64,000 nucleotides of DNA from Azospirillum thermophilum. GTDB taxonomy: Bacteria; Pseudomonadota; Alphaproteobacteria; Azospirillales; Azospirillaceae. The notes under the pieces were generated by a model, which ran no database searches, was not told where the DNA came from, and worked only from the letters and a program-made list of their open reading frames with translations. Below, piece by piece: positions 40,722-64,000 of the stretch. The position numbers were made by a program, and so were the translations under genes. The stretch's first letter is position 1; each line of letters begins with the position of its first letter. The DNA lies in assembly GCF_003130795.1 (NCBI RefSeq), contig NZ_CP029352.1:908001-972000 (forward strand). Direction: 5' to 3'.

Positions 40722-40795
40722 CGAGCGGCAAACTGCTCCTTTGATCGGACGGCGAAGCAAGCGTATATCGGCGTCCTCCGGCGGTGAGCCGCCCG

Positions 40796-42475
40796 ATGGA
40801 TGCTGCCCCGATGGATTCCCGCCCTTCCAGCCGCCGAACCTCGAGCCCGGGCCGCCACAGGCTCGGCAAGTACGAGGGGCTGGAGGAGATCGGGCGCCCT
40901 CCGGGCGGAGCGACCCTCTACAGTGCGGCCGATCCGGCCACCGGCCGCGCCGTGACCCTGGCCTGCGTCGCCCTGTCGGCCTTCGCCGGCCGCGACGCCG
41001 ACCTCGACCGGTTCCGGCGGGACGCCAGGGTGGCGAGCCGGCTGATCCACCCTGCCATCCTGCGCATCCATGCCTCCGGAGAGCATGGCGGGACGGCATT
41101 TCTCGCCTGCGACCCTGCGGCGGGCCGGACGCTCGCCCAGTTGCTGGCGGAGCAGGCCCCCCTTGCCGCCGGAGAGGCTGTCGCAATCACGGCCGCCATC
41201 CTGGAGGCCGTCGACCATGCCCACCGGGCCGGCTTGGTGCACGGCCTTATCGCCCCGGAGGCCGTCTGGATCGGAGAGGATCGGACGGTGCGGGTCGGCT
41301 GGTTCGGCCTTGCCGCCCTGGCGGCCCCTCGGGCAACCGTCGGGGACGATCTGAAGGCCGTCGGCGGGTTGCTCGACCGGATGCTTGCCGGCCGCAGCCT
41401 GACCGTCGAGCTGACGGGTATCCTGGCACAGGCGACGGCCCCCCGGCCGGAGGATCGGTTCGCCAGCGCCGCCGCCTTCCGGAGCGCCCTGCTCGACGCC
41501 GGCCCCTCGCCACCTGCCGGGCCGAAGACGCGCCGCCGGCTGCCCGTGCTGCTTCCGGGAGCGGCGCTCGCCCTGCTGGTGGCAGCCGGGCTGCTGATCC
41601 TGGACCGCCGTCCTGCCCCGCCGTCACCCCCGGCCGCCGCGGTCGTCGAGCCCCGGCCCGCGTCCGCACCTCCGGGTCCGCAACCGGCCGAACTGCAATC
41701 GCCCGCTGCGGAGTCCCCGCCCCCTTCCCCTCCGGCGCCCGTCCAGCCGGCGGAGGCACCTGCCGCCGTCCCGGTACCGCCGCCGCTTCCCGCCCGCCCT
41801 TCGCCGGAGGCGGTGCGGAACGCCTTGCGCGACGTGACCTGCGCCCTGCCGACGGTAGGGGAGCATGACGGCCGGCTGCTGATCGGAGGGACCGCCGCCG
41901 GAGAGGCGGCGCGCAGGGCGGTGCAGGACCTGACCGCGAGACTGGCGGGCGGCTGGCCCTATGGGATCGAGATCGCCACGGCCCCCGCCGAGCTGTGCGA
42001 TCCATTGACCGTGGCGGCGGCCCCGCTGGCGGCGAATGCCGCACTCGACCGGCCGCTCGCCCTGCGGCTGGTGACTGAGGCCGGCCCGCTGCGGGCGGAC
42101 GAGTCCCTGGTTCTGGAGGTGGAGACGCCGCCGGGCCGCCCGCTCCATCTGCAGGTCGATTACTTCACGGCCGACGGCACCGTCGTGCATCTGCTGCCCA
42201 ACCCCAGCGAGACGGGCAGCCTGACGGAACCTGCAGCGACGCGGCGTCTGGGAGAGAGGTCGGCCGGCGGGCGGTTCTGGACGATCGGCCCGCCCTTCGG
42301 CCAGGAGTTGCTGCTGGTACTCGCCTCTCCCGCTCCGCTGTCCGTGGGTGGGCGGCCGGAAGCGGAACCGGCATCGGCCTATCTGGCGGCCCTGCGCCGC
42401 GCCCTGCGGGAGTCCGGCAGCGTCGAGGGCGGGCATGTTCTGGCCGCGGCCCGCTTCATCGCCACGGCGCCCTGA
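40796..42475 (+). CDS. Pseudokinase-transmembrane-DUF4384 protein
   Basis: 559 residues. Residues about 25-235 have a Ser/Thr-kinase fold, but its catalytic residues are gone. The HRDLKPEN loop has become HGLIAPEAVW (149-158), the DFG site is GWFG (168-171), and there is no VAIK lysine. A membrane helix (LPVLLPGAALALLVAAGLLI, 249-268) and a long Pro-rich spacer follow. The last 120 residues look like DUF4384 (DESLVLEVETPPGRPLHLQV, DYFTADGTVVHLLPNP). It may be a signalling or scaffold protein linking cytoplasm and periplasm. It opens the flagellar region. ATG 40796 was chosen over GTG 40784. Confidence 0.8.
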   Translation: MDAAPMDSRPSSRRTSSPGRHRLGKYEGLEEIGRPPGGATLYSAADPATGRAVTLACVALSAFAGRDADLDRFRRDARVASRLIHPAILRIHASGEHGGTAFLACDPAAGRTLAQLLAEQAPLAAGEAVAITAAILEAVDHAHRAGLVHGLIAPEAVWIGEDRTVRVGWFGLAALAAPRATVGDDLKAVGGLLDRMLAGRSLTVELTGILAQATAPRPEDRFASAAAFRSALLDAGPSPPAGPKTRRRLPVLLPGAALALLVAAGLLILDRRPAPPSPPAAAVVEPRPASAPPGPQPAELQSPAAESPPPSPPAPVQPAEAPAAVPVPPPLPARPSPEAVRNALRDVTCALPTVGEHDGRLLIGGTAAGEAARRAVQDLTARLAGGWPYGIEIATAPAELCDPLTVAAAPLAANAALDRPLALRLVTEAGPLRADESLVLEVETPPGRPLHLQVDYFTADGTVVHLLPNPSETGSLTEPAATRRLGERSAGGRFWTIGPPFGQELLLVLASPAPLSVGGRPEAEPASAYLAALRRALRESGSVEGGHVLAAARFIATAP

Positions 42476-42523
42476 CCGGCAGGCCCGGTTACTTCGGAAG
42501 AGGACCGCTGAGGCGGGGATCGC

Positions 42524-42736
42524 TCAGACGACGATGTTGAGGTTCTGGCCGCGCGTCTCGGTGACATTGCCGCCACCGGGGCTACCGCCCGGACTGCCGC
42601 CCAGCAGGGTGGTGACGGCCGCCTGCTGCTGCTCGGCCGCCTGGTTCAGCGCCTTCACGCCGAAACTCATCTGGCCTTGTGCCTGACGCAGGGAAACCGC
42701 GGCGCCCGCGGTCGAGGAGGTGACGTCGAGAGACAT
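42524..42736 (-). CDS. YjfB-like putative motility protein
   Basis: 70 residues. The N-terminal half is a helix, SLRQAQGQMSFGVKALNQAA then EQQQAAVTTLL, which resembles the YjfB motility family. A Gly/Pro-rich tail follows (GGSPGGSPGGG). Family members occur near flagellar genes and are of unknown mechanism. It is followed on the same strand by nothing closer than the DUF4384 gene end (convergent). The FlaG-like gene is 77 bp upstream. Confidence 0.65.
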   Translation of the reverse strand: MSLDVTSSTAGAAVSLRQAQGQMSFGVKALNQAAEQQQAAVTTLLGGSPGGSPGGGNVTETRGQNLNIVV

Positions 42737-42813
42737 GGCTTGAGTACCCGTTCCGGACCGTTCAAAGCATCCTGCGGCGCTTCAGCGCATCCTGCGGCCG
42801 AACATCGACGCCG

Positions 42814-43395
42814 TCAGATGACGACATTCACCCGGGCGCTGCCGGTAGAACCGCCGGCACCCGCCGCAGCGCCGGCGACGGCAACCGCCGCCTGATGCGT
42901 CGTGGACACGGAGGATTGTGCCACGAATGGAGCACCACCGGAAGGGGGTGCGGCCGCGGTTGTCACAGCCGCCTTGCCGGCTGCGCCATTCGTCGCACTC
43001 CGGCTAGCGGAACTGCCGCCCGATCCGGCGCCGGAGGAACCGCCCTGGCCGCCATCGCCGGCCCCGCCGACGACCATCTTGAGCGCCGAGGCCCGCTCCG
43101 CCTCCTTCTCCTTCTGCTGCGCTTCCTTGTATTGCTTCAGCGCAGCCTCGGTCGGGATCTGGGAGACCGTCTTGCCGTCCGCCGGGTCACGGAACAGCAT
43201 GACCAGACGCGAAGCGTCGGTGTCGTAGGAGAAGGCGACGATGGGGTAGCGGTTGGTGAGGGGTTCCGCCGTGCCCGTCGCGATGCGAATCGGGGCGTCG
43301 GCCCCGGTTCCGGCGTCTTTCGCGCCGCGGGCCGTCATGGGATCGACCGGCCGAGAGGCCGTCGCAGTGGCGAGTGCCACATTCATGACCGGCAT
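42814..43395 (-). CDS. FlaG-like flagellar protein
   Basis: 193 residues. The central part matches the FlaG pattern: IVAFSYDTDASRLVMLFRDP, then DGKTVSQIPTEAALKQYKEA. A charged coiled helix (EAQQKEKEAERASALK) and a long Gly/Ala/Ser tail with low sequence complexity follow. FlaG proteins affect filament length and flagellin export in other bacteria. Start ATG 43395 is one of several close choices (GTG 43401, ATG 43386). The upstream 290 bp is AT-rich and likely a promoter. Confidence 0.65.
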   Translation of the reverse strand: MPVMNVALATATASRPVDPMTARGAKDAGTGADAPIRIATGTAEPLTNRYPIVAFSYDTDASRLVMLFRDPADGKTVSQIPTEAALKQYKEAQQKEKEAERASALKMVVGGAGDGGQGGSSGAGSGGSSASRSATNGAAGKAAVTTAAAPPSGGAPFVAQSSVSTTHQAAVAVAGAAAGAGGSTGSARVNVVI

Positions 43396-43685
43396 ACCCA
43401 CAAATCCTGGAATCGCAAGGATAAAAATACCTTGAAATTGCTCTAACGTAAAGGGTTTGTTTACGCTTATCAGGAATTGCGGGCCGCCTCGGGTCCCTCA
43501 CGCACAACGATAGGCCAAAAGGCTTATATGGTTGAAGTTTCAAGACTCTGGCTCCGCCATCCGGGGCACGCGAACCCTCTCCTCCGCCGTCCAGGCAGTG
43601 GTGCCGCTGCATCGGGATTATCCCTAAGGGGTGGAAAACAGGGGCATGCTTGCACCGTTCAGGGCATCCCCGTAAGCCTCTCGCC
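43396..43685. promoter_or_regulatory. Divergent region FlaG-like / TPR-GT gene
   Basis: 290 bp, AT-rich near 43405-43470. Contains the hairpin-like repeat CGTAAA-N7-TTTACG at 43447-43465 and a second, imperfect one near 43513-43530 (ATAGGCC/GGCTTAT). Neither is a known operator to me. Promoters for both neighbouring genes must lie here. Confidence 0.4.
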
Positions 43686-45209
43686 ATGCCGATGATCACC
43701 GAAGCGCTGACGCAGGCGCTGAGCCACCATCTCGCCGGCCGGCTGGACGAGGCGAAGGCGCTCTACACCCTGGTCCTGGACGCCGACCCGGAGCAGCCGG
43801 ACGCCCTGCATTTCCTCGGCGTCCTCGCCGGGCAGGTGGGGGAGGTGGCCGGCGGTCTGGCCCTGATCGGCCGCGCGCTGGCCCTGCGGCCGGAAGCGGC
43901 GGACATCCACGCCAACCGTGCCAACCTGCTGCGCTCCGCCGGCCGGTCGCCACAGGCCGAGGACGCCTATCGCGTCGCCCTGGCGCTCCAGCCCGATTTC
44001 GCCGAGGCCTGGACCGATCTGGCCGGCGTCTGCCGCGCCCGCGGCGAAACGGACCAGGCCATCGTGGCCCTGGAGCGGGGGCTCGCCGCCAACCCGGATC
44101 TGGCGGTGGCGGCGGAGCGCCTGTCCGCCCTCCTGCACGAGAGAGGGCGGCTGCTGGTCGATACCGGCCGTTTCCTGCCCGCCATCGATCCGCTGGCGCG
44201 GGCGGCGGCCCTGGCTCCGGCGGATGCCGACATCGCCTTCCTGCTGGGAAACGCCCTGTTCGCCGTCGGCCTGCGGGAAGAGGCGATCCAGGCCTATCGC
44301 CGGGCGGCGGCGCTGACGCCCGACTTCGTGTCGGCCGGTTTCAACCTCGGCGTGGCGCTCGGCCGCACCGGACGGCTCGAGGAAGCGGCCGACGTGCTGA
44401 CCCGCACCGCCCGCATCGATCCGTCGCAGGTGGAACTGCTCGACACGCTGGTCCTCTCGCTCGTCGCCACCGGCCGGGTGGGGGAGGCGGCCGACTGGGC
44501 CGGCCGGACCCTGGCTGCGAAGGATGCGGCGACGGTCGCCAACGCGCCGGCCCTGCCGGCGATGCCGCCCGCGCCGCGCGGATCCCGGGAGCGTCGCCGG
44601 GACGTCCTCGCCTACGGGCTGTGGGGAGCGGACGAGGCGATGATCCGCGGCGCCATCGGGAATGCGCGGCTCGCCCCGACTGTCCATCCCGGCTGGACCT
44701 GCCGCGTCTACCACGACGCGACGGTGCCCGCCGGCGCCCTGGCGGCGCTGGCCGAAGCCGGGGCGGAACTGGTCGCCCTGGACACCGGCACTGCGGCGCT
44801 GCCCGGTCCCTACTGGCGCTTCCTCGCCGCCGACGACCCGACGGTGCGCCGCTTCCTCTGCCGCGACTGCGACAGCCCCCTGACGATGAAGGAGCGGGCG
44901 GCCGTGAAGGCGTGGATGGCCTCGGGCCATCCCTTCCACATCATGCGCGACGACATCCTGCAGACGGAGCTGATCCCGCCCGGCCTGTGGGGCGGCCTGG
45001 CCGGGCTGCTGCCGGACCTGCGGCCCCTCGCCGAGCGCTTCGCGCGGGCGGAGGGAGCGCATCAGGAACACCGCTTCCTGCGCCGCTTCGTCTGGCCGCT
45101 GATCCGCGGGCGGGCGCTGATCCATGACGGCGTCCACCCCGGCCAGGGCCGGCCCTTCCCGGACGGTCCCTTCCTGGAGCAGGTGGGGGCGAAGCTCAGG
45201 CCGGCCTGA
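43686..45209 (+). CDS. TPR protein with C-terminal glycosyltransferase-like domain
   Basis: 507 residues. Residues 1-280 are about eight TPR repeats (HHLAGRLDEAKALYTLVLDA, NLGVALGRTGRLEEAADVLT). From about 305 a different domain begins: YGLWGADEAMIRGAIGNARL, then YWRFLAADDPTVRRFLCRDC with D394-C-D396 as a possible metal-binding DxD. SPLTMKERAAVKAWMASGHP and FHIMRDDILQTELIPPGLWG follow. I have seen this block next to glycosyltransferases but cannot name the fold. Its 3' end overlaps the convergent methyltransferase gene by 14 bp. Confidence 0.7.
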   Translation: MPMITEALTQALSHHLAGRLDEAKALYTLVLDADPEQPDALHFLGVLAGQVGEVAGGLALIGRALALRPEAADIHANRANLLRSAGRSPQAEDAYRVALALQPDFAEAWTDLAGVCRARGETDQAIVALERGLAANPDLAVAAERLSALLHERGRLLVDTGRFLPAIDPLARAAALAPADADIAFLLGNALFAVGLREEAIQAYRRAAALTPDFVSAGFNLGVALGRTGRLEEAADVLTRTARIDPSQVELLDTLVLSLVATGRVGEAADWAGRTLAAKDAATVANAPALPAMPPAPRGSRERRRDVLAYGLWGADEAMIRGAIGNARLAPTVHPGWTCRVYHDATVPAGALAALAEAGAELVALDTGTAALPGPYWRFLAADDPTVRRFLCRDCDSPLTMKERAAVKAWMASGHPFHIMRDDILQTELIPPGLWGGLAGLLPDLRPLAERFARAEGAHQEHRFLRRFVWPLIRGRALIHDGVHPGQGRPFPDGPFLEQVGAKLRPA

Positions 45210-46470
45210 CGGCGACCATCACCAGCCCGGCCACCGGCTCGCCGCTCTCCTGGCGCAGCGTGTCGTGGCCGGCCTGCCGGACCGACAGCCCGGCCCGCTC
45301 CAGCACGCCGCGCACATACTCCTCGCGATGAGCGTAGCGGCCGTGCGGAGCGATGCGGTAGGGCATGCCCGCCGCATCATCCAGCCGTTCCACCGTGAAG
45401 GCGAGCAGCCCGCCCGGCCGCAGGGCGGCGGCGGCGGCGGCGAGAACCTCATCCAGGACCCCGAAGTAACAGAGAACGTCGGCGGCGAGGATCAGGTCGA
45501 AGGCGGCGGGGTGATCGGCCAGGAAATGCCCGAGTTCCGCCTCCTCAAGCCGATCGTAGAGCTTGCGGGCGCGGGCGAGATCCAGCATGCCGGCCGACAG
45601 GTCGACGCCGGTCAGGGTCGCCGCGTAGGGGCGCAGGGCGGCCGCGCAGAGGCCGGTACCGCAACCGGCATCCAGCACGGCGAGCGTCCTGTCCGGCACC
45701 GGCCCCAGCCTGCCCAGCGCTTCGGCCAGCAGTGCGGGGGCACGGTAGCCGAGCTCGGCGAGCTTGCTGTCGAACTCCGCGGCGAACAGGTCGAAGGTCT
45801 GCCGGACATAGTCGTCCGAGGCCCGCGGCTCCGCCGCGTCGCCGGCGATCGCCGCGCCGATGTGGCGGGCCAGCGGATTGTCCGGGTGGTCCCGCCGCCA
45901 CAGCCGGGCCAGCCGCTCCGCCGCCGCGGTCTGCCCCTGCTCGTGCAGCAGGTAAAGCGCCCCCTGCAGGTTGTCGTGCGCATCCTCCCAGTCCGGCCGC
46001 AGGGTGACGGCACGGCGATAGCCGACGGCCGAGTCCTCCAGCCGTTCCAGGTCGCGCAGCAGGTTGGCGCGGTTGTTCCACGCCTCCGCATACTCCGGCT
46101 GGAGGGCGAGCGCCCGGCGGAAGGCCTGCTCCGCCTCGCTCATGCGGTCGAGATGACGGAGCGCCGACCCGAGATTGTAGTAGACCAGCGGGTGGTCGAG
46201 CCCGTTCGCCAGGGCGGCCCGGTAGCATTCCACCGCCTCCGCCACGCGGTCGAGCGTGCGCAGCGCGTTGCCCAGGTTGTTGTGGGCGCCGGCAAGCCGC
46301 GGATCGAGCGCCAGGGCGGCGCGGTAACCCCGCTCCGCCTCCCCGGTCCGTCCGGCGGCGGCCAGCGCATCGGCCTCGCGGCACAGGCGGACGGCATCCC
46401 CGGCGGAGGCGTCGGCGGACGGCGCCGCCTTGCGCAGGCGGGATCGCAGAGGACGTCGGGTTTCCAGCAA
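45196..46470 (-). CDS. TPR-SAM methyltransferase fusion
   Basis: 424 residues. TPRs cover about 28-190 (EAERGYRAALALDPRLAGAH, NNRANLLRDLERLEDSAVGY). Residues 215-424 are a class I methyltransferase: YVRQTFDLFAAEFDSKLAEL, motif I LAVLDAGCGTGLCAAAL (263-279), then VDLSAGMLDLAR and LILAADVLCYFGVL. It may add methyl groups to a sugar or protein, as methylated sugars are common on flagellin glycans (inference). Divergent from the giant TPR-GT gene, with a 125-bp gap. Confidence 0.8.
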   Translation of the reverse strand: MLETRRPLRSRLRKAAPSADASAGDAVRLCREADALAAAGRTGEAERGYRAALALDPRLAGAHNNLGNALRTLDRVAEAVECYRAALANGLDHPLVYYNLGSALRHLDRMSEAEQAFRRALALQPEYAEAWNNRANLLRDLERLEDSAVGYRRAVTLRPDWEDAHDNLQGALYLLHEQGQTAAAERLARLWRRDHPDNPLARHIGAAIAGDAAEPRASDDYVRQTFDLFAAEFDSKLAELGYRAPALLAEALGRLGPVPDRTLAVLDAGCGTGLCAAALRPYAATLTGVDLSAGMLDLARARKLYDRLEEAELGHFLADHPAAFDLILAADVLCYFGVLDEVLAAAAAALRPGGLLAFTVERLDDAAGMPYRIAPHGRYAHREEYVRGVLERAGLSVRQAGHDTLRQESGEPVAGLVMVAVRPA

Positions 46471-46530
46471 GATGGGGGCCTCCGGCGGCAGGGCGGCAAT
46501 AACCGCATCTTTACCTTGAACGCCGGATCA

Positions 46531-46546
46531 TGGCACTCCCTAAGCA
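46531..46546 (+). promoter_or_regulatory. Sigma-54-like promoter
   Basis: TGGCAC-TCCCT-AAGCA: the -24 element is perfect, with GG and GC exactly 10 bp apart. It lies 50 bp before the start of the TPR-GT gene at 46596 and directs transcription into it. This fits the flagellar regulon. Confidence 0.55.
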
Positions 46547-46595
46547 TGGCCCGCCGGCGGCGGGCGCCCCTGCGGCCGGCACGGCGGATCGGATC

Positions 46596-49500: not shown

Positions 49501-50173
49501 GATGGTGCGGGCAGAGATGGTGGACGCCGGCGGCCGGGAAACCATGGTGCCGCCCGACTGCGACCTGCAGATCGCCGCCGGCTCGCTGCCCGCCCTGCTG
49601 CGTGACCGGCTCGACCGCTTCCCCGACCGCCCGGCCTACCTGTCGCCGGAGCCCGGCCGCCTTGCCCTGTGGCGGCAGCGGGTGGCGGCGCTGGGGCCGG
49701 GGCTGAAGGTCGGCATCGCCTGGCGCAGCCAGATCGTCACCGCCCGGCGCAAGAGCGCCTACACCAGCATCGCCGACTGGCTGCCGGTGATCGACCTGCC
49801 CGGCGTCGTGCCGGTGTCTCTGCAATACGGCGACTGCCGGGCGGAGCTGGCGTCGGTAGAGACGGGCGGCCGGCGCCTCCACCGCTGGGACGACCTGGAC
49901 CTGAAGGATGATTTCGAGGGCGTGGCCGCCCTCATCTCCTGCCTGGATCTGGTCATCGCACCGGCGACGGCGGTCGGCGAGCTTGCCGGCGCCCTGGGCG
50001 CGCCGACCTGGCGCCTCTGCACCATCGACTGGACCTGCCTCGGCAGCGCCGTGCGCCCCTGGTTCCCGACCATGCGGCCCTTCGCTCCCAGCCCGGCGGA
50101 GAGCATGGGCGATGTCGTCGCGCGCGTCGCCGCAGCACTCTCCCGTCTGGCCGGCTCGGCGGGGCCGCGCTGA
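46596..50173 (+). CDS. Two-module TPR-glycosyltransferase protein (frameshifted)
   Basis: About 1192 residues once repaired. Module 1: TPRs 1-325, then a GT9-like domain (WREQGLGDEILFASCYPDV, TIECDPRLVTLFQRSFPAAA). The frame then breaks in the G run 47948-47953, where one G is missing. Resuming frame: LRVGIGWRSQLITAERRGAY, LDLVISPAMSAGELAGALGV. A Pro-rich linker lies near 628-660. Module 2: TPRs 660-880, then WSEQGVGDEILFASTIGDLA and LVIAPATAVGELAGALGAP. The domains resemble heptosyltransferase-type GT-B folds; donor and acceptor are unknown. The last base of its stop overlaps the next gene's start. Confidence 0.78.
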
Positions 50174-52455: not shown

Positions 52456-52573
52456 TGAAGATTATGGTTGTTCCAGATGGCAGATCGGTGAACACTCTTA
52501 GCACCGGCCCTTGAGGCCATGATCGAAGCAGGCTTCGACGGACGCCGGTCGTGGATCAGATGGAGAGCACAAC

Positions 52574-52753: not shown

Positions 52754-52787
52754 AAATCCCCCAAAGCATAGAATAGGACGGCCAAAG

Positions 52788-52822
52788 GCCAGGGGTGTGC
52801 AACCGCCGCCCCTGGCTTTTTT
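52788..52822 (+). terminator. Rho-independent terminator after the DUF465 gene
   Basis: Perfect 8-bp stem GCCAGGGG / CCCCTGGC with a 13-base loop, followed directly by TTTTTT. It ends the plus-strand transcript 35 bp after the DUF465 stop and just before the converging giant gene. Confidence 0.9.
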
Positions 52823-52837
52823 AATGCCCGACCATTA

Positions 52838-55800: not shown

Positions 55801-58792
55801 ACAGCATGATGCCGAGGTTGCTGAGCGCGTCGGCACCGGCCGGGTCGAGCGCCAGGGCCCGGCGATGGCAGGCCGCCGCCTGGACGAGATCACCCGACAG
55901 ACTGTTCGCCAGGTTGCCGAGGTGGGTGTGGGCGAGCGGCAGGTCGGGCCGCAGCCGCAACGCACGAAGGATGCAGCATCGCGCCTCCTCCTCCCGCCCC
56001 AGGCGGATCAGCAGGACGGCCCGGTTCACCAGGACGCCCGCATTGTCGGGCTGCGCGGCGGCGGCATGGCGCAACGCCCGTTCCGCCGCCTCCATCCTGC
56101 CCAGCGCCTGCAGCGCATCAGCCAGCGCGGCATGGCCGGCGCCGTTGCCGGGATCGGCGGCGACCGCCCGCGCGAGCAGGCCGGCAGCCTCCGCCGCCTC
56201 CCCCCGCCGCAGGGTGATGAGCCCGGCGAGATGCAGGGCGACCGGCTGGTCCGGCACATCCGCCAGCAGGTCGCGGGCAAGCCGTTCGGCCGCCGCCGCA
56301 TCGCCCTCGCGATAGAGCGCGATGGCCCGGGAAAGCTCCGTCTCGACGTCGCGGGAGGGCGGCGATGCCTCCCCGGCCGGCATGCATGTCGCCTCGGCAA
56401 GAGTGTGGCGGAGCGTGCGGGCGATCCGCTCCAGCACGGCGGGCAACGTCTCGCCCGGCTGCGGCTGGAACAGGCGCATCGTCGGGAACCAGGGCCGCAC
56501 GCCGGTGCCGAGCTGCGTCCAGTCCATGCCGCAGAAGCGCCAGACCGGTACGCCGAGCGCCCCGGCCAGTTCCCCTACCGACATCGCGGGCGACAGGACC
56601 AGATCGAGACTGGCGGTCAGCGCCGCCGTCCCGTCGAAATCGTCCTTCAGGTTCAAGTCCGGCCAGCGATGGATGCGCACGCCGAACCTCTCCTCCGCCT
56701 GTCGCAGCTCGGCCTCGCAGTCGCCGTACTGCAGATTGACGAAGATGATGCCGGGAATGGCGAAGATCGCCCCCCAATCGGCGAGCGCGGTGTAGGCGGC
56801 GCGCCGTTCCGTGGTCATGACCTGGCTGCGCCAGCCGATGCCGACCCGCAGGCCCGGACCGAGCGCGTCCAGACGCTCCCGCCATCGATCCACCAGCATC
56901 GGGTCCGGGACCAGCCAGGGGGCCTGCTCCGCGTAGTCGGCCAAGCTGCGGCGCATCCGCTGCGGCAGGCTGCCCGCCGGCAGGTGGGCGTCACAGTCCG
57001 GCGGAACGATGGTTTCCCGCCCGTCCGTGCCGATGCTCTGCGACCGCACCGTCGCGGCGGGGAAGGAACGCTGGAACAGCGGCACCAGCCGCCGGTCGCA
57101 CTCGATCACCAGATGCCCGACGCGCCGGATCAGGTCCGGATAGCAGGAGGCGAAGAGGATCTCGTCGCCCACCCCCTGCTCGCGCCAGACCAGCAGGCGG
57201 CGGCCGGACAGCTCCTCTCCCCGCCACAGGGGGGCGGCGAGCGGCCGGTCCTCGTATCCCTTGGCGCGGAACCGCCATTCGTAATCGTCCCAGCCCGGCC
57301 CGATCTCCCCCAGGGCCAGCCGCACCATGCCGCGGTTGAGGTGCGCCGGACCGAGATCGGGGTCGAGCTCCAGCGCCCGATCCAGGCTGGCCCGCGCGGC
57401 CGGGGCATCGGCCGACGCCTGCCACAGCAGCATGCCCAGGTTGGCGTGCGCCTCGGCCAGCGTTTCCCTCAGCGCGATGGCCTTGCGGTGGGCCGCCTCC
57501 GCCGCGCCGGTCTGGCCGAGCAGCGACAGGACGAGGCCGCGGGCCGTATGGGCGTCGGCATTGTCGGGATCGATCCGCAGGGCGCGGCGCAGCGCGAGGT
57601 CCGCCTCCTGCAGCCGGTCGAGGTCCTGAAGCTGGCTGCCGAGGTTGGTGTAGGAGTCGGGATAGTCCGGCTGAGCGGCGATGGCCTTGCGGCGAAGCTC
57701 GACCGCCCTGGCGGGCAGGTGCCATGCCTTGTAGACGCCGCCCAGATTGTTGAGCGCCTTGCCGTAATCCGGCCGCAGCATCAGGGAGCGGCGATAGCAG
57801 GTCTCCGCCGCATCCAGCGCGTGCAGCCCGTCATGCGCGGTGCCGAGGTTGTTCAGTGCCACCGGGTCGTCCGGCTGCAGCGCCACGGCCGCCCGCAGGG
57901 CCGGCACCGCCCGTTCGTGCCGCTCCAGGTCGAGCAGCACGACACCGAGGTTGTTGAAGGCGCCGGGCAGCGCCCCCAACGCCAGGGCCTGCTCATAGCG
58001 GTCCGCCGCCGCCGCCAGCCGTCCGGTGGACTGGAGCACGGTGCCCAGCGTGAACAGGACGAGCTGGTCGGCGCCGGCCGTCGCGGCCGCGGTCTCCAGC
58101 ACGGCCAGGGCCTCGTCCGTCCGCCCCTGCTCGGCCAGAAGCCCGCCAAGCTCGCGGCCGAGTTCCGGATCGGCGGGAGCGTCGGCGAGCGCCCGGCGCA
58201 GGCAGGGCTCGGCGTCGGGATGGCGCAGGCCGCGCAGCGCAAGGGCCAGATGACGCCATGCCGGTACGTGACCGGGTGCGGTCCTCAGCAGCTCGTGAAA
58301 GCACCGGGCGGCGAGGTCGAGGCGTCCGGCATCGCGGTAGAGAAGGCCGAGATTCAACCGCGCCGCCGTCGAGCCGGGAGCCAGCTCCAGGGCACGGTCA
58401 TAGGCCTCCGCCGCCTCCTGCCGGCGGCCGAGCGCCTGCAGGACGGTACCGAGATTGCTGTGCGCCTCGGCATAGGCGGGATCCTGGTCGATGGCGGTCG
58501 CCAGGGAACGGGCCGCCGCCTCGTACCGGCCGAGGTCGGCCAGGACCGTGCCCAGGCTGTTGTGGGCGGCGGGAAACCTGGGGTTGACCGCAATGGCGGC
58601 CTGGATCCGCTCCAGGGCCAAGTCGGAGTTGCCGGACTGATGGGCGGCGACGCCCGACAGGTGCAGCGCGTCGGCATGGCGGGGGGCGGCGCGCAGGATG
58701 CGTCCATAGAGGTCTAGCGCCTCCTGCAGCCGGCCGGCGCGGTGGCGGTCGATGGCCTGGTCGAGCAGTGCAGCGGTTGACGTCACCGTCAC
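52838..58792 (-). CDS. 1984-residue three-module TPR-glycosyltransferase protein
   Basis: Unbroken open frame. Module 1: TPRs 1-500 (about twelve), GT 505-795 (LLVWREQGVGDEILFASCYP, IECDRRLVPLFQRSFPAATV, LVLSPAMSVGELAGALGVPV). Module 2: TPRs 815-1105, GT 1110-1400 (LLVWREQGVGDEILFASCYG, LVISPAVSAGELAGALG). Pro/Ser/Thr linker 1401-1425. Module 3: TPRs 1426-1685, GT 1690-1984 (ILVSREQGIGDEVMFAGCLP, LVIAPAVSTGELAGALG). The GT parts resemble GT9-type GT-B domains. Each copy keeps GxGDE, a W-R-S strand, and the GELAGALG motif, so all may be active. No signal peptide, so cytoplasmic. It sits 11 bp after flbT on the same strand, suggesting cotranscription with it. Confidence 0.85.
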   Translation of the reverse strand: MTVTSTAALLDQAIDRHRAGRLQEALDLYGRILRAAPRHADALHLSGVAAHQSGNSDLALERIQAAIAVNPRFPAAHNSLGTVLADLGRYEAAARSLATAIDQDPAYAEAHSNLGTVLQALGRRQEAAEAYDRALELAPGSTAARLNLGLLYRDAGRLDLAARCFHELLRTAPGHVPAWRHLALALRGLRHPDAEPCLRRALADAPADPELGRELGGLLAEQGRTDEALAVLETAAATAGADQLVLFTLGTVLQSTGRLAAAADRYEQALALGALPGAFNNLGVVLLDLERHERAVPALRAAVALQPDDPVALNNLGTAHDGLHALDAAETCYRRSLMLRPDYGKALNNLGGVYKAWHLPARAVELRRKAIAAQPDYPDSYTNLGSQLQDLDRLQEADLALRRALRIDPDNADAHTARGLVLSLLGQTGAAEAAHRKAIALRETLAEAHANLGMLLWQASADAPAARASLDRALELDPDLGPAHLNRGMVRLALGEIGPGWDDYEWRFRAKGYEDRPLAAPLWRGEELSGRRLLVWREQGVGDEILFASCYPDLIRRVGHLVIECDRRLVPLFQRSFPAATVRSQSIGTDGRETIVPPDCDAHLPAGSLPQRMRRSLADYAEQAPWLVPDPMLVDRWRERLDALGPGLRVGIGWRSQVMTTERRAAYTALADWGAIFAIPGIIFVNLQYGDCEAELRQAEERFGVRIHRWPDLNLKDDFDGTAALTASLDLVLSPAMSVGELAGALGVPVWRFCGMDWTQLGTGVRPWFPTMRLFQPQPGETLPAVLERIARTLRHTLAEATCMPAGEASPPSRDVETELSRAIALYREGDAAAAERLARDLLADVPDQPVALHLAGLITLRRGEAAEAAGLLARAVAADPGNGAGHAALADALQALGRMEAAERALRHAAAAQPDNAGVLVNRAVLLIRLGREEEARCCILRALRLRPDLPLAHTHLGNLANSLSGDLVQAAACHRRALALDPAGADALSNLGIMLYGLDRFVEAERLLTRATLVDPGFAEAWTNRGNALDSLGRVAEAEACHRRAADLRPDLPEPHVNLGLLLRRAGRPTDAAEACRQAIARDGRSAQAHYNLAHLLLEDGQLRAGWTEHEWRFATPQFLGQRRRFTAARAWKGENVSRSRLLVWREQGVGDEILFASCYGELLNRAGHLVIECDRRLASLFARSFPGATVRAETVDPRDIDVQVAAGSLPRLLRPELRRFPDRPSWLVPDPALVEAWRERLAALGPGLRVGIAWRSQLVTAERRGAYATLEAFAPLFAVPGLTFVNLQYGECEAELQAAEDRFGRRIHRWADLNLKDDFEGAAALTANLDLVISPAVSAGELAGALGVPVWRFCGPDWTQLGTAVRPWFPSMRLFQPQPGEALPEVVGRMAAVLRRTGEEPAPPSTPLPSTLPPSTPSAPDDPDRLLAAAAEHHRAGRLGDAAPLYERVLRLRPGDPVALHLSGLLLHQTGDSAAAEPSIAAAVAAEPGYAAAHASLGSVRLALGRPGDAIRALRAGLALRPDDAALLTNLGNALDRSGRLEEAASAHRRAALADPALPQAADNLGTVLLRLGRIGEAAAAHRQALALAADLDSAWQNLSVALRRQGRLDEACRAVARALALDPALAEAMANLGRLLREMGHFARAERWCDRALRLDPGQPAALFNKSLLCLTRGALSDGWAGYDRRFDGTEMTGGARQPGVPLWRGERLDRRRILVSREQGIGDEVMFAGCLPDLIARAGHVVVECDPRFVPLFGRSFPQATIRPAPDRQDEPAEGVDLHIPIGSLPRRLRRSLAAFPSREAGYLRAAPQRVALWRDRLAALGPGLKVGVAWRSGLLTAERMPDYTRLEDWGPVLAIPGVHFVTLQYGDCAAELEAARRRFGTAPAVWDDLDLRNDLEGAAALTAALDLVIAPAVSTGELAGALGVPVWRFGRAGDWTTLGTAVRPWFPSMRLFLTRADQTVADLLPEIARVLSSLGSGR
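54534..54578 (-). repeat. Three 15-bp tandem units in the module 2-3 linker
   Basis: Units GGCGTGGACGGGGGC, AGCGTGGACGGGAGC, GGCGTGGACGGGGGC in direct array. Read on the minus strand they encode the Pro-Ser-Thr linker (PPSTP, LPSTL, PPSTP units). Copy number may vary, changing linker length without breaking the frame. Confidence 0.8.
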
Positions 58793-58803
58793 CCTATCGA
58801 CCG

Positions 58804-59217
58804 TCAGATTCCGGCGGAGGGATCGTCATCCGCCTGCGGTTCGCCACCCTCTGCCGCGGTCCTGAACATCTTCCGGCAGAGCTTGAGGGCCCGGTAGTAG
58901 TTGCGCGCCTCCACCAGCCGTTCGATCTCATCCAGATCCTTCGCCCGGTCCGGCCGGGCCGCCCGCGTCTCCTCCAGGATGGAGGCGAAGCGCTGCAGGT
59001 TGAGCACCGCGTCTTCGGGAAAGATGTAGACGAGCTGGATGACGAAATAGAGCTTCTTCTCGATGCAGTCGATCTGCTCTTCCTTCAGAACCTCGCGCCC
59101 GCGCAGGAAATTGGCGGTGTTGTAGAGGAAGAAGGAGCCCGGCCGGTCTCCGGCGCCGATCACGGCACCGTTGATGATGACCTTCTCGTTGGGGCGCAGA
59201 ACGAACTTGAGCGGCAT
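58804..59217 (-). CDS. flbT: Flagellin synthesis regulator FlbT
   Basis: 137 residues. MPLKFVLRPNEKVIINGAVI and FFLYNTANFLRGREVLKEEQ are the standard FlbT opening, and LYFVIQLVYIFPEDAVLNLQ matches its helical middle. In Caulobacter FlbT binds the 5' leader of flagellin mRNA and lowers its stability; related alphas use it with FlaF. It lies 156 bp after flagellin and 11 bp before the giant TPR-GT gene. FlaF is not in the window. Confidence 0.93.
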   Translation of the reverse strand: MPLKFVLRPNEKVIINGAVIGAGDRPGSFFLYNTANFLRGREVLKEEQIDCIEKKLYFVIQLVYIFPEDAVLNLQRFASILEETRAARPDRAKDLDEIERLVEARNYYRALKLCRKMFRTAAEGGEPQADDDPSAGI

Positions 59218-59318
59218 GACGGGAACCCGGTGAGGCGGCATCGCCGGCCGCCGGCCGAAGCCGGCCGGGCACGGCCTGGAATAGGATGGCCATCCTGGGG
59301 ACGGCCCGAAAAGGAAAC

Positions 59319-59342
59319 GGGCGGCGGCTTGCGCCGCCGCCC
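59319..59342 (-). terminator. Terminator after flagellin
   Basis: Perfect 10-bp GC stem GGGCGGCGGC / GCCGCCGCCC, loop of 4, followed on the minus strand by GTTTCCTTTTC. It lies 32 bp after the flagellin stop and should terminate much of the abundant flagellin message before flbT. Confidence 0.75.
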
Positions 59343-59373
59343 GCCGGGCGTGATCCTACCCGAACTGCCAGGA

Positions 59374-61236
59374 TTAGAACAGACGCAGGATGGACTGCTG
59401 CGACTGGTTGGCGAGGCTGAGGGCGATGGTGCCGAGCTGCTGGCGGGTCTGCAGCATCAGCAGGTTCGCACCTTCCTCGTTCTGGTCGGCCAGCGTCAGC
59501 TTGCTGGCACCCTCGGTCAGCACGTCGCTGAACTCCTTGGTGAAGTTCTCGCGGGTCGTGATGATGTTCAGGTTGGTCGACAGGTTCTGCGAGGCGGAAC
59601 GGATGGTCTGCTTCGCGTAGTCGATGCCTTCCACCGCCTTGTCGATGTCCTTGCGGTCGGTCCAGTCGTTCTGGGCATAGTCCAGACGCAGGCCCTGGCC
59701 GCTCGTCGTCAGGTTGACGGCCGACACCTTGATGGCGTTGGTGTTGCGCTCGTTCAACTGCACCGTCAGGTCGTTGGCGCTGTTGGCATCCGCCACCTGC
59801 ACCGTCACCAGGTTCGCCGCCGAGTTGGCCGACGCCGCCTTCCTGATGGTGTTCTGGTCGACCTTGACGCGCACCGTGCCGGTGTCGAAGGCGAAGGACT
59901 GCTCGCCGTCCGACAGCTTGCCCTCGCCGCGGGCGGCGGTGCCGTCGCGGGTGACCTGCGAGCCGTTCAGGTTGGTGGCGGTGAGCTGGATGTTGACCTT
60001 CTTCTCGATGGTCGAGATGCCGTTGCCGCCGTTGGCCGCGGCCTCCAGCAGGGTCCGGTCCACCGTGAAGGACACCACGGTGCCCGACGCGAAGCTCTCG
60101 GAGATGCGCTTGGTCAGGGCGTTGGTCGTGGTCGCCGACACCGTCATCTCACGGGCGACGCCCGTGGTCTGCGCACCGGTCAGGGTCACCGTGCCGGCGC
60201 TGCCGACGGACACCGTGGCGACGTCCTTGCCGCTCAGCCGGCCGCCGGCGCCCAGGGCCGAGGAGATCGAGGCCTGGAGCTGGGTGGCGATGTTCTGCTT
60301 GGCCGTCTGGCCGACCGCGACGTCGGTGGAGGTGGCGGTGTAGCTGAAGGTCTGCCCCTCGACCGTGATCGAGAAGATGTCGCCAGCTTCGATGGTGCCG
60401 CCGACCGTCACCTTCGAGATCTGCGCGACGCCCGAGGTCGCGGCGCGCGTCAGGTTGGTGGAGATGCTCTGGTTGTTGTCGAAGTAGGAGATCGTGCGGC
60501 TTTCCTTGCCGTCCGACACGATGAAGGAGCGCTCGCGGCCGGTGGCGCCGCGCACCTCGATCTGCACGTCGGAGAAGCTGCCCGACGAGGTCGACATGGT
60601 GCCCGACAGCTTCAGGCCGGTCAGGCCGTGCGCCATCTCGGCGCCGTTGATGTCGGCCGCCGCACCGGTGATGGCGCCGTCGCCCTTGACGCGCAGCGTG
60701 TAGGTGTCGGTGGCGATGACGTTGGTGACGCGGGCGTTCTCGAGACCCTGGATCGTGTTGACCGCGGCGCGCGAGGTGTTGGTGGAGTCGAGCCGGAGGC
60801 CGTTGCCGGCGATCAGGTTCTTGCCGGCATAGCCGCTGTCGCCGGCCAGCTTGTCGATCTGCTCCTTGAGCTGGTTGAACTGGGTGGCCAGCGCCTTGCG
60901 GGTGGCGACCGAGCCGGCGTCCGTGCCGAGGGCGGCATAGGCGGCGGTGGTCAGGCCCTTGGCCTGGTCGATCATGGTGTCGATCGACGACAGGCCCTTG
61001 TCGGCGGCCTTGATGGTGCTGATCGACTGGCCCATCGCGTCCTTCAGCGACGACAGGTCGCTGGCGCGCTGGGTGAGGCCCTTGGCGGCGAAGAAGGCGG
61101 TCGGGCCGTCGAGGGCCGTGTTCACCTTGTTGCCGGTCGACAGGATGTTCTGCTTCTTCGCGATCTGATCCTGAACGTTCTGCAGCTGCAGAAGGTTCGT
61201 CCGCATCGATGCGGTCAGGGAGACTTCGTTCGCCAT
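59374..61236 (-). CDS. Flagellin, long variant
   Basis: 620 residues. The D0/D1 N-terminus is MANEVSLTASMRTNLLQLQN, QDQIAKKQNILSTGNKVNTA. The C-terminus is NLNIITTRENFTKEFSDVLT, then QTRQQLGTIALSLANQSQQS and the final LRLF. The 350-residue central region is rich in Ser/Thr (STSSGSFSD, TSTDVAVGQ) and would form the exposed D2/D3 domains, the usual place for O-glycans. Structural subunit of the filament. A strong AAAGGAG site precedes ATG 61236. A sigma-54-like promoter lies about 100 bp upstream. In composition it looks like the Azospirillum type. Confidence 0.95.
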   Translation of the reverse strand: MANEVSLTASMRTNLLQLQNVQDQIAKKQNILSTGNKVNTALDGPTAFFAAKGLTQRASDLSSLKDAMGQSISTIKAADKGLSSIDTMIDQAKGLTTAAYAALGTDAGSVATRKALATQFNQLKEQIDKLAGDSGYAGKNLIAGNGLRLDSTNTSRAAVNTIQGLENARVTNVIATDTYTLRVKGDGAITGAAADINGAEMAHGLTGLKLSGTMSTSSGSFSDVQIEVRGATGRERSFIVSDGKESRTISYFDNNQSISTNLTRAATSGVAQISKVTVGGTIEAGDIFSITVEGQTFSYTATSTDVAVGQTAKQNIATQLQASISSALGAGGRLSGKDVATVSVGSAGTVTLTGAQTTGVAREMTVSATTTNALTKRISESFASGTVVSFTVDRTLLEAAANGGNGISTIEKKVNIQLTATNLNGSQVTRDGTAARGEGKLSDGEQSFAFDTGTVRVKVDQNTIRKAASANSAANLVTVQVADANSANDLTVQLNERNTNAIKVSAVNLTTSGQGLRLDYAQNDWTDRKDIDKAVEGIDYAKQTIRSASQNLSTNLNIITTRENFTKEFSDVLTEGASKLTLADQNEEGANLLMLQTRQQLGTIALSLANQSQQSILRLF

Positions 61237-61333
61237 GGTCGTCACTCCTTTGGAGGATTCGATCCCGCCCGGCCGGGGTCATCCCCTTTGGCAGCGCGGA
61301 CGGAAGGGGACTAATTCCCCTGTGACCGTGGTA

Positions 61334-61349
61334 GGCAAGAAGTGGGCCA
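61334..61349 (-). promoter_or_regulatory. Sigma-54-like promoter of flagellin
   Basis: On the minus strand: TGGCCC-ACTTC-TTGCC. GG and GC are 10 bp apart and five of six bases match the -24 element. It would start transcription near 61323, leaving a leader of about 85 nt, which could be the target of FlbT. Confidence 0.6.
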
Positions 61350-61389
61350 CGGCAAAAACCACCCGGGGATCCAGGAAATCCGTGCCTCC

Positions 61390-61500
61390 CGGCAAAAAGG
61401 CACCCGGCAAGAACTGCCTAGCGCCCGGCAGTTTCTGCCGGATCCCCGGCACCGCTTGCCGGGTAGGCAGATTCTGCCGGGTATTTCCTGCCGGGCAACA
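61390..61500. repeat. Cluster of short palindromes upstream of flagellin
   Basis: About seven CCGGCA/TGCCGG motifs in 110 bp, arranged as GGCA-N5-TGCC dyads (e.g. GGCAGAATCTGCC, GGCAAGCGGTGCC, GGCAGAAACTGCC, GGCAGTTCTTGCC on the minus strand). The array also covers the last codons of the ketoacyl synthase gene. It could be an activator-binding array or a repeat element. Confidence 0.55.
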
Positions 61501-62500
61501 CAACCACCCCGCAGGCGGCGAGCGGGCCGGCCGCAAGCGCCACGCTGCCCCAGGACCAGCCGACCCCGAAGCCGGACAGCAGGAGACGCCGGCGTCCGGT
61601 GCTAAGCGCGTCGGCCAGTTCGGTGGCAAGCGCCAGGGGAATGGAGGCGGAGCTGGTATTGCCATAGGAGCCGAGCCCGATCACCGTCTGCCCGGGCGTT
61701 GCCCCGAGCTTCTGGGCCAGGTGGCGGATCATCTGGGCGTTGGCCTGATGCAGGACGAGATGGTCGATCTCCTCCATCGCCCAGCCGGCCCGGTCGAGCG
61801 CGGCGCGCACGCTGCCGGGAACTTCGCGCAGCGTGAAGGCGAAGACCTGCGTCCCGTCCATGGCGAGACGGGCGGGCTCCTCCGGACTGCGCATACCGCC
61901 GCCGGACACCGCGAGGTAGGGCGCCCCCGCCCCGTCGCTGCCGAGGTCGAAGGCCATGGCGGGCGCTCCCTCCTCCTGCTCCAGCGCGACCGCGGCGGCC
62001 GCGTCGCCGAACAGCGGCGCCACCGCCCGGTCGGCCGGATCGACCAGCCGCGACGTCGTGTCGCCGACCAGCAGCAGCGCCCGCCGCCCCGCCGCCTTCA
62101 GCATCCCGGCCGCGGTCCACAGCCCGTAGACGAAGCCGGAACAGCCGTGGGTGAGGTCGAGCACCGCCGCCCCCTTGCGCAGCCCGAGCCGGCGATGCAG
62201 CAGCGAAGCGGTTCCCGGCAGGATGTGGTCGTGGGTCTGCGTCACCAGGACCAGGAGGTCGACGCTGTCCGCCTGCCATCCCAGCCGGTCGAGCAGGCGG
62301 CGGGCGGCGAGGTCGGCGAGATCGGAGGTGCATTGGCCGGGAGCGACGACATGGCGGGACTCGATGCCCGTCGCCTTGGCGATCTTCTGCGCCGCCTCCT
62401 CGCCGAAACGGGCCGCGAGGTCGGCCTGCGTCTCCCGCCCCTCGGGGACGCAGGCGACCAGGCCGCGGATGGCGACGCCGTCGAGGGTGCTGGCGACCAT
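61418..62500 (-). CDS. 3-oxoacyl-ACP synthase III family protein
   Basis: 360 residues. The Cys-His-Asn triad is complete: C120 in LDLTHGCSGFVYG, H251 in LVLHQANAQMI, and N281 in SYGNTSSASIPLAL. FabH-like condensation of an acyl-CoA/ACP starter, or acyl transfer in specialised pathways. The last 25 residues (PGRKYPAESAYPASGAGDPA) are outside the fold and read through the palindrome cluster. It is third in an operon (acyl ligase, SDR, this gene) running toward flagellin. Similar genes occur in flagellin glycosylation islands such as that of Pseudomonas aeruginosa strain PAK. Confidence 0.85.
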   Translation of the reverse strand: MVASTLDGVAIRGLVACVPEGRETQADLAARFGEEAAQKIAKATGIESRHVVAPGQCTSDLADLAARRLLDRLGWQADSVDLLVLVTQTHDHILPGTASLLHRRLGLRKGAAVLDLTHGCSGFVYGLWTAAGMLKAAGRRALLLVGDTTSRLVDPADRAVAPLFGDAAAAVALEQEEGAPAMAFDLGSDGAGAPYLAVSGGGMRSPEEPARLAMDGTQVFAFTLREVPGSVRAALDRAGWAMEEIDHLVLHQANAQMIRHLAQKLGATPGQTVIGLGSYGNTSSASIPLALATELADALSTGRRRLLLSGFGVGWSWGSVALAAGPLAACGVVVLPGRKYPAESAYPASGAGDPAETAGR

Positions 62501-62525
62501 GGGGCGCTCCTTTCGGGAGGACGGC

Positions 62526-63278
62526 TCAGCAGGTGATGCCGCCGTCCACCGTGATGGTCTGGCCGGTGATGAAGGCGCCGCCCTCGCCCAGCAGGAAGCG
62601 GACCACCGGAACCACGTCCCCCACCCCGCCGAGCCGGCCGAGCGGCGTGCGGCGGATGATCTGGTCGCGCTGGCCCGCCGACAGCGTACCCGACATCTCG
62701 GTTTCCAGATAGCCGGGCGCCACCGAGTTCACCGTCACCTGCAACCGCCCGACCTCGCGCGCCAGCGCCCGCGTCAGCCCGTCGAGCCCCGCCTTGGAGG
62801 CGGAATAGGCGGCGAGCCCGACATAGCCCCGCTGCCCGATGATCGAGGAGATGTTGACAATCCGCCCCGGCCCGCGACGCAGCAGCTTGGCCCGCAGGAA
62901 GGCCCGCGCCACCTGGATGGCGCCGGTCAGGTTGGTCTGGACGACCTCCTCCACGTCCACCTCGGGAAAGGTGGCGAGCACCCCTTCGCGGGCGATGCCG
63001 GCATTGTTGACGAGCCCCCACAGCGGCGAGGGGCCGGCCCATTCCACCGCCGCCTCGACAAAGGCACGCACCTGTCCGCCGTCGCCGATCCGGCAGGCCT
63101 GCCAGAACAGGTCCGGCCCGGCCAGCCGTTCGAGTTCGGCGGCCGGGCCGCGGCTGCAGGTGGAGACGCGGTAGCCCTCGGCCAGGAGCGCCTCCACCAG
63201 CCCGAGGCCGAGGCCGCGGCTGCCGCCGGTGACGATGACGTGGCGCTTCGCGCGGCCGTTCTCGCCTGGATCTGTCAT
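62526..63278 (-). CDS. SDR family oxidoreductase, FabG-like
   Basis: 250 residues. NAD(P)-binding TGGSRGLGLGLVEALL, NNAGIAREG, and the Ser-Tyr-Lys active site (VNISSIIGQRGYVGLAAYSASKAGL). The C-terminal ITGQTITVDGGITC matches ketoacyl reductases. It probably reduces a beta-keto acyl intermediate made by the ketoacyl synthase encoded 25 bp downstream. Its start overlaps the ligase stop by 4 bp (ATGA). Confidence 0.9.
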   Translation of the reverse strand: MTDPGENGRAKRHVIVTGGSRGLGLGLVEALLAEGYRVSTCSRGPAAELERLAGPDLFWQACRIGDGGQVRAFVEAAVEWAGPSPLWGLVNNAGIAREGVLATFPEVDVEEVVQTNLTGAIQVARAFLRAKLLRRGPGRIVNISSIIGQRGYVGLAAYSASKAGLDGLTRALAREVGRLQVTVNSVAPGYLETEMSGTLSAGQRDQIIRRTPLGRLGGVGDVVPVVRFLLGEGGAFITGQTITVDGGITC

Positions 63279-64000
63279 GGCTCGGGCCTCCGGCTCTTCT
63301 TTCCCGCGGTGGACAGCGCGATGTGGTCGGCGAAGGTCAGCACCCGCGGACGGGCAGCCGGCGCCAGCGGCTCCAGCGCGACGCGGATCGCGGATCGCAG
63401 CGCGCTCTCCTCCACGCCGGGCTGCGGCACGACGGTGGCGGTCAGGATCCAGCCGGAGATCGGGTTCGCCCTCGGCTCCACCAGCGCGTCCAGCACGCCG
63501 GGAACCGCCAGCAGGGCCGTCTCCGCCGCCTCCGGCGAGACCTTCACCCCGCCGACATTGATCCGTCCGTCCAGCCGGCCGGCGAACAGCACCCGGCCGT
63601 CCCGCAGTTCCACAAGGTCACCGGTCGACAGCCAGTCCCCGGCGCCGTCCAGCATGGCGCGCGGGCTGCGCACCTCCAGCACGCCGCCGGCGATGCGGAG
63701 CCCGACCCCGTCCACTCCCGTCTCAAGCCACTCGGCCGGGAAGCCGGCGAGACCGTCGGCGACGGCGAACAGGGCGCCGGCCTCGGTGGAGGCGTAGATG
63801 TGCCGCAGCCGCGCCTGCGGAAAGCGCTCCGCGAGGCGGTCGAGCAGCGGCTGGTCGGCCGCCTCGCCGCCCAGCGTGATCGCGGCGAGTGGCGGGGCCT
63901 CCGCCCCCAGCGCCATCAGGAAGGCCCGCCAGAAGCTGGGCGTGCCGCTGACATGGGTGACGCCGTGGTGCACCGCCGCCCGTGCCAGTCCGCCGACCCC
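63275..64000 (-). CDS. AMP-dependent acyl synthetase, C-terminal part (runs off window)
   Basis: The visible 241 residues are the C-terminal half of an ANL-superfamily enzyme: THVSGTPSFWRAFLMALGAE, ITLGGEAADQPLLDRLAERF, RHIYASTEAGALFAV (adenylate motif), LSTGDLVELRDGRVLFAGRL, and INVGGVKVSPEAAETALLAV. The last block near the C-terminus is STAGKKSRRPEP, with the position of the catalytic Lys. It activates an acid as acyl-AMP for transfer to ACP or CoA. The N-terminal half lies beyond the right edge. Same operon as the SDR and ketoacyl synthase. Confidence 0.85.
   Translation of the reverse strand, partial: GVGGLARAAVHHGVTHVSGTPSFWRAFLMALGAEAPPLAAITLGGEAADQPLLDRLAERFPQARLRHIYASTEAGALFAVADGLAGFPAEWLETGVDGVGLRIAGGVLEVRSPRAMLDGAGDWLSTGDLVELRDGRVLFAGRLDGRINVGGVKVSPEAAETALLAVPGVLDALVEPRANPISGWILTATVVPQPGVEESALRSAIRVALEPLAPAARPRVLTFADHIALSTAGKKSRRPEP

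Follow-up and report, generated by a model that had tools for sequence, protein, structure and literature searches.

The window analysed here is a stretch of 64,000 nucleotides from the 6.78-Mb genome of Azospirillum thermophilum (G000:C1:908001-972000). Towards its end lies a conserved gene island adjoining flagellin, whose products most likely make an acylated sugar of the sialic-acid kind and link it to flagellin by means of multi-module transferases. Genes were called by codon-position GC and then checked against Pfam and NCBIfam. The flagellin, of about 620 residues, is encoded on the minus strand (59374-61236; Flagellin_N PF00669, E 1.2e-14; Flagellin_C PF00700, E 5e-6), with its start ATG at 61236 preceded by a Shine-Dalgarno-like stretch. 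On the same strand follow flbT (58804-59241; PF07378, E 1.1e-29) and, after a gap of 11 nt, a gene for a protein of 1984 residues (52838-58792), in which tetratricopeptide repeats (TPRs) are coupled to three glycosyltransferase (GT) modules at 56402-57310, 54602-55495 and 52841-53761. Two more modules are encoded convergently on the plus strand, in two overlapping open reading frames (ORFs). The first (46530-48041) carries TPRs and the start of GT module 1 (homology at 47574-48029); the second (47660-50173) carries the remainder of that module (47954-48493), further TPRs and GT module 2 (49226-50158). The five mutually similar TPR-coupled modules around flagellin and FlbT that a preliminary description had reported are thus present, three in 52838-58792 and two in 46530-50173.

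Upstream of flagellin, still on the minus strand, lie genes for a beta-ketoacyl-ACP synthase III (KAS III; ACP, acyl carrier protein) at 61418-62500 (NF006829, 261.9 bits, cut-off 249), a short-chain dehydrogenase/reductase (SDR) resembling 3-oxoacyl-ACP reductases at 62526-63278 (PF00106, E 1.3e-48; TIGR01830, 187.7 bits, below its cut-off of 297.75) and an AMP-forming acyl ligase at 63275-64000, which continues past the window to about 64441. The ketoacyl synthase/SDR/acyl ligase operon described earlier is therefore real, running from 61418 to the window end. The island continues for at least 8 kb beyond this point, reaching PseG. Read along the minus strand from outside the window, its order is nucleotidyltransferase, PseG, a distant sixth TPR-GT (split), GT4, PseI, cytidylyltransferase, ACP, alpha/beta hydrolase, ACP, AMP ligase, SDR, KAS III, flagellin, FlbT and the three-module TPR-GT. 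From SDR through PseI adjacent ORFs overlap by 4-11 bases, and co-transcription of these genes is therefore likely. The two ACPs straddle the Pfam cut-off of 20.8, with scores of 20.4 and 21.7. Together, ACP, 3-oxoacyl-ACP reductase and AMP ligase cluster with sugar genes and flagellin, the arrangement by which we define an acyl-type flagellin island. Mutants in fabG of A. brasilense Sp245 are reportedly affected in their flagella, which would fit the SDR if that fabG corresponds to the island gene.

The sugar genes indicate a nonulosonic acid pathway. The pseudaminic acid synthase PseI (479.2 bits, cut-off 340.25) and PseG (183.3, cut-off 153.55) are encoded in the island, while PseC (459.6, cut-off 423.5) and PseB (522.5, cut-off 407.75) are adjacent to each other on contig C8; all four exceed their curated cut-offs. 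Contig C8 also carries two more NeuB genes together with a TPR-GT (113000-153000; L203 and L204); flagellin was not found there, and the locus may serve a surface glycan of its own.

The closest described relative of the TPR-GT proteins is found in Caulobacter crescentus, where FlmG is described as the flagellin O-glycosyltransferase needed for flagellin modification; in two-hybrid tests its TPR part is reported to bind each of the three flagellins assayed, and pseudaminic acid is required (PMC7591256). Modules were found in each of seven named Caulobacter genomes. A TPR-GT of 599-703 residues, measured from stop to stop, adjoins FlbT and flagellins in the fetched stretch of six of them; in the seventh genome, which is fragmented, FlbT lies with the beginning of a GT domain on a single small contig. 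Further copies lie elsewhere in two of the seven. By homology, length, domain order and flbT neighbourhood, we identify the Caulobacter proteins as putative FlmG. The C. crescentus gene is, we presume, the old flbA beside flbT. With FlmG understood as the TPR-GT beside flbT in these genomes, the window proteins share its N-terminal TPRs followed by a homologous, GT-B-like C-terminal domain, the link to pseudaminic acid and the flbT/flagellin neighbourhood, which is occupied by the three-module gene. The GT domains of complete window modules are 34-41% identical to those of Caulobacter over 295-326 aligned positions.

Within the window, the second, third and fourth complete modules are 67, 55 and 55% identical to the first. 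The source genome as a whole gives twelve hits with the module profile, some of them halves of split genes. The modules had been called GT9-like, with a profile check proposed; the name holds for part of the family only. When two window modules were scanned alone against Pfam Glyco_transf_9, one gave E 0.19 and the other no match, and with nothing at 0.01 we rejected Pfam GT9 membership for them. Among 31 diverse modules four match at E≤0.01, and the relatives P0058 and P0062 exceed the curated cut-off. None of the five window modules matches PF13844 (GT41). A search of the Protein Data Bank (PDB) with the A1 profile found no relative. Five PDB matches fell short of the threshold (E 0.21-0.28), the first to a manganese-binding protein and the other four to heptosyltransferases.

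The low GT9 scores, like the 11-nt distance to the gene for FlbT, a described translational regulator of flagellin, would suit tandem proteins that act mainly as TPR scaffolds, chaperones or flagellin regulators, with GT-like domains inactive in transfer. We consider this highly improbable: 59 columns do not vary among four window modules and the FlmG-type domains of three Caulobacter sequences, and the module positions are retained across the genus. The latter appears in a quick tree of 97 modules, with support from SH-aLRT values alone and the split window module left out, its pieces being too short. Each of the four complete window modules groups with its positional counterparts from two other Azospirillum islands (support 92 to 100), and all 14 modules from Azospirillum islands fall into a single group (SH-aLRT 83, not starred). 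The positions therefore appear to have been fixed early in the genus and then kept, which argues against simple redundancy. Next in the tree, with weak support, come four-module proteins of another genus of the family; FlmG sits, also with weak support, in an adjacent clade whose modules are mostly linked to flagellin or NeuB. The four-module proteins, of about 2,255 residues from stop to stop, occur at G185:C2:169452-176219 (L130) and on G266:C29 (L131); the NeuB label of L131 in the tree was given only because it shares the genus of L130. In G185, 16-18 kb separate the protein from flagellin, FlbT and the same set of acyl genes.

Across Azospirillum, we fetched 20 congener islands (L110-L129), namely those with coordinates among the listed matches; the other 20 congeners were judged from the matches listed alone. 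One of the fetched islands, L117, is that of A. ramasamyi; L015 is the same record and was not counted beside the 20. The synteny survey proposed earlier shows a layout common to all of them. In 20/20, NeuB, cytidylyltransferase, ACP, hydrolase, ACP, ligase, SDR, KAS, flagellin and FlbT stand together with two TPR-GT genes, one of them multi-module and the other two-module and convergent. The TPR-GT that follows FlbT carries three modules in 19 islands and two in L117. Genus-wide, among the matches listed and with the source genome included, NeuB lies within 8 kb of flagellin in at least 34 of 41 genomes, and in at least 30 of 41 flagellin and the best listed GT are no more than 10 kb apart. 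In G006 and G039 the best listed GT is far off on the same contig; in several other genomes the two are on separate contigs or not among the matches listed. At the DNA level, the flagellin-TPR-GT stretch has matches in 17 plasmid records, of which 16 are from Azospirillum, and the closest named proteins are also from this genus.

A sigma54-type promoter-like site, TGGCCY-N5-TTGC (61334-61349, minus strand), precedes the flagellin gene. In the window and in 20/20 fetched congener islands alike, 96-113 nt separate its first base from the flagellin ATG downstream. The scan for such sites was rejected as evidence on its own, giving 17 matches against 21.8 expected by chance; the site is retained because it is conserved in place. 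RpoN is reported to be necessary for A. brasilense flagella (PMC12826043). This species is also reported to encode two 65-kDa polar flagellins; in the source genome a second flagellin (627-aa frame), very like that of the island, lies at G000:C2:1097891-1098286 (L009), with no TPR-GT in its fetched flanks.

Beyond the genus, the module is present in 114 of 289 genomes of the class. From these 114 we took 40 loci outside Azospirillum with high-scoring modules, one per genome, in fetched stretches of up to 20 kb (some shorter), and, as controls, 20 stretches of the same contigs at a distance of about 100 kb. Flagellin and/or FlbT, the latter scored with a profile that includes one mistranslated row (L193), occur in 20/40 module loci (both in 15) and in 0/20 controls (Fisher p 3.5e-5); the 20 test loci matched to the controls include 10 with flagellin and/or FlbT. 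In one control stretch, L230, a GT module is present but flagellin is not. Another five test loci hold NeuB but no flagellin in the fetched stretch; one of these is G185, with flagellin, FlbT and acyl genes at the distance given above. The remaining 15 have neither flagellin/FlbT nor NeuB. At L147 (G087:C32), five complete single-module TPR-GT genes and one partial stand in a row, with no flagellin, FlbT or NeuB found in the 20 kb.

These counts bear on whether the pseudaminic acid, acyl and TPR-GT genes might serve a lipopolysaccharide (LPS) or capsule sugar and neighbour flagellin by accident. Half of the class-wide loci are without flagellin or FlbT, five of them with NeuB, and the two further NeuB genes and TPR-GT on C8 of the source genome lie away from flagellin hits. 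We nevertheless hold this explanation to be very unlikely, and reject an accidental neighbourhood, in view of the 20/40 module loci against 0/20 controls, the flagellin inside the cluster of 20/20 fetched congener islands, and G185, in another genus of the family, which keeps flagellin, FlbT, KAS, SDR, ligase, ACPs, cytidylyltransferase and NeuB together. The preliminary description had named a prevalence of the modules beside LPS or capsule genes elsewhere as the sign that would count against it; with LPS and capsule genes themselves not scored, it is flagellin or FlbT that is found beside half of them. Its choice of flagellin as acceptor, made from position, gains support from the same comparison and from the Caulobacter TPR-GT beside flbT, so that flagellin is the probable acceptor.

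We therefore favour, with a probability of about 0.72, a cytoplasmic FlmG-type O-glycosylation island for polar flagellin, joining pseudaminic acid, an acyl group and transfer by tandem TPR-GTs. From homology, pathway genes, synteny and the conserved promoter-like site we infer binding, catalysis, donor, acceptor, acyl group and the reason for tandem modules. UDP-GlcNAc would be converted to the CMP-form of pseudaminic acid, or of a variant, by PseB and PseC from the other contig and by the island's PseG, PseI and cytidylyltransferase. The ligase, two ACPs, KAS III, SDR and alpha/beta hydrolase would supply a short, probably 3-hydroxy-, acyl group, to be placed on pseudaminic acid or on a later sugar. 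The TPR domains would bind unexported flagellin, and the linked GT-B-like domains would transfer sugars onto it in the cytoplasm. With two or three modules per protein, several transfers, of different sugars or to different sites, could take place on one bound flagellin, while GT4, GT41 and the TPR-methyltransferase may extend or decorate the glycan. One step further, and more tentatively, each polypeptide might be an assembly line in which successive TPR arms hold flagellin and each fixed module either adds a sugar of its own or puts the same acylated pseudaminic acid on a site of its own, module order encoding glycan structure or site pattern; this is possible, if doubtful.

Several points weigh against the FlmG-type reading. 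The 20/40 class-wide loci without flagellin or FlbT in the fetched stretch suggest that some relatives may act on acceptors other than flagellin, so that flagellin need not be the acceptor throughout the wider family. The identification of the Caulobacter proteins as FlmG was made by likeness and neighbourhood, not from the CCNA_01524 record. No PseF model matched the island cytidylyltransferase at 1e-5. Among the scanned island proteins none matched PseH (the rest of the genome was not searched), and because of this we venture the guess that the acyl operon may replace PseH acetyl transfer. Lastly, the flagellin glycan of A. brasilense Sp7 is described as an O-antigen-like repeat of rhamnose, fucose, galactose and N-acetylglucosamine (GlcNAc), in passages that make no mention of pseudaminic acid (PMC3958885, PMC8100600). 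That glycan also fits a chain built on a lipid carrier like an O-antigen, which would decorate flagellin while the TPR-GT modules merely prime it or act elsewhere; against this, the FlmG precedent is described as cytoplasmic and independent of an oligosaccharyltransferase, and we regard such a chain as unlikely here.

Compared with FlmG, a single-module protein, the proteins of the FlmG-type island have two or three modules, and four in another genus. Moreover, its pse genes lie within the flagellin cluster, whereas in C. crescentus the locus tags lie scattered across the genome, and an acyl operon is added. For the latter, the polar flagellum island of Aeromonas group II is described with pse genes, ACP, 3-oxoacyl-ACP reductase, AMP-dependent synthetase and glycosyltransferases together (PMC7874193). 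The Aeromonas island has Maf and luxC/luxE, the one studied here TPR-GT modules, KAS III and an alpha/beta hydrolase (luxC/luxE were not searched for). The genome of C. crescentus is without Maf. Of the Maf profiles, PF01973 matched none of 21 genomes, only archaeal controls, and PF20157 matched none of the 21 and no control. The viosamine island of P. syringae likewise combines KAS III (VioS), 3-oxoacyl-ACP reductase (VioR) and ACP, assigned there to the N-3-hydroxybutyryl group of the flagellin glycan; its sugar is dTDP-viosamine, and its transferases include VioT, of 1,173 residues (PMC3927599). Long flagellin glycosyltransferases as such are thus not new. Acyl genes are also described in enterobacterial flagellin islands. 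Both halves of the system therefore have precedents, in FlmG and in the acyl genes of Aeromonas, Pseudomonas and enterobacterial islands. Acyl genes accompany a TPR-GT in another family as well: L188 (Caulobacter hibisci) has an extra TPR-GT near relatives of the ACP (49%), KAS III (50%), SDR (35%) and cytidylyltransferase (48%).

Other TPR-bearing flagellin glycosyltransferases have been predicted in Clostridium (PMC13317340, 2026), and TPR-GT fusions at flagellin are therefore a wider theme. Tandem FlmG-type modules were not described in the titles and abstract starts of the flagellin-glycosylation literature that we searched, with subscription papers mostly outside this scope. The earlier statement that no known island is built on tandem TPR-GT fusions is thus right for the tandem arrangement, while the single-module FlmG was already published (PMC7591256). 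As far as these searches show, the new part is that two to four FlmG-type modules are fused in tandem, with every position kept throughout the genus. It would multiply the FlmG principle within one protein and makes site and sugar choice testable. The polar flagellin of A. brasilense is known to be glycosylated; for Azospirillum this modification is cited to 1995, in passages that name no transferase for it, and the island offers a short list of candidate genes. One cluster of a plant-growth-promoting genus would so join pseudaminic acid synthesis, ACP-dependent acylation and TPR-GT transfer.

The two-module gene, described before as one gene, is split in the window but is a single open frame in 20/20 fetched congener islands. 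Its GT homology switches frame near position 47,950, where the two ORFs overlap and six G follow one another (47949-47954, plus strand). The closest homologues in other Azospirillum are mostly of about 1,160-1,250 residues. A programmed frameshift or phase variation is unsupported, the homologues having one frame and the aligned relatives no six-G run; the split reflects either a genuine mutation or a fault in the assembly. At two other TPR-GT loci of the source genome (G000:C1:977265-979399, L007/L008; G000:C2:1525893-1526776) the gene also looks divided between frames, by real decay or residual assembly errors.

Between the two multi-module genes, on the plus strand, 50173-52455 encodes the GT41-like TPR enzyme noted earlier. 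It matches PF13844 with 123.1 bits (E 1.3e-35, cut-off 25) and, among solved structures, SPINDLY 7y4i (6.8e-80) and 5djs (8.3e-73). It is thus a TPR-GT41 protein, like OGT and SPINDLY. A GT41 catalytic part occurs in 2/20 fetched congener islands (L127, L128), and the protein is an accessory enzyme of the island. Fucose and GlcNAc are among the sugars reported in the A. brasilense flagellin glycan (PMC3958885, PMC8100600).

On the other side of the two-module gene, the TPR-methyltransferase of the preliminary description is borne out at 45196-46470 (minus strand; TPRs and Methyltransf_23, PF13489, E 1.1e-16). The neighbouring gene 43650-45209 (plus strand) had been described as a TPR protein with a DxD domain. 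Its TPRs match Pfam and the motif RDCDS can be read from the letters, but the C-terminal 220 residues match no Pfam family and a GT assignment is unconfirmed. Many of the named proteins among its 95 homologues are from Azospirillum; the RDCDS domain is fused to TPRs in this genus and to other partners elsewhere. At G000:C5:67462-73771 (L013), a marginal flagellin match (27.1 bits, cut-off 26.6) lies about 5 kb from a single-module TPR-GT.

Beside the gene at 43650-45209, a small FlaG-like flagellar protein may be encoded at 42814-43401 on the minus strand (PF03646, E 0.0016, under its cut-off); an ORF 67% identical to it is present in A. ramasamyi (L015). The kinase-like/DUF4384 gene at 40784-42475 (plus strand; PF00069, E 1e-9; PF14326, E 8.9e-8) marks the edge of the finding and is probably outside the glycan pathway. 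The corresponding end of the A. ramasamyi island holds a DUF4384 gene and a PP2C gene.

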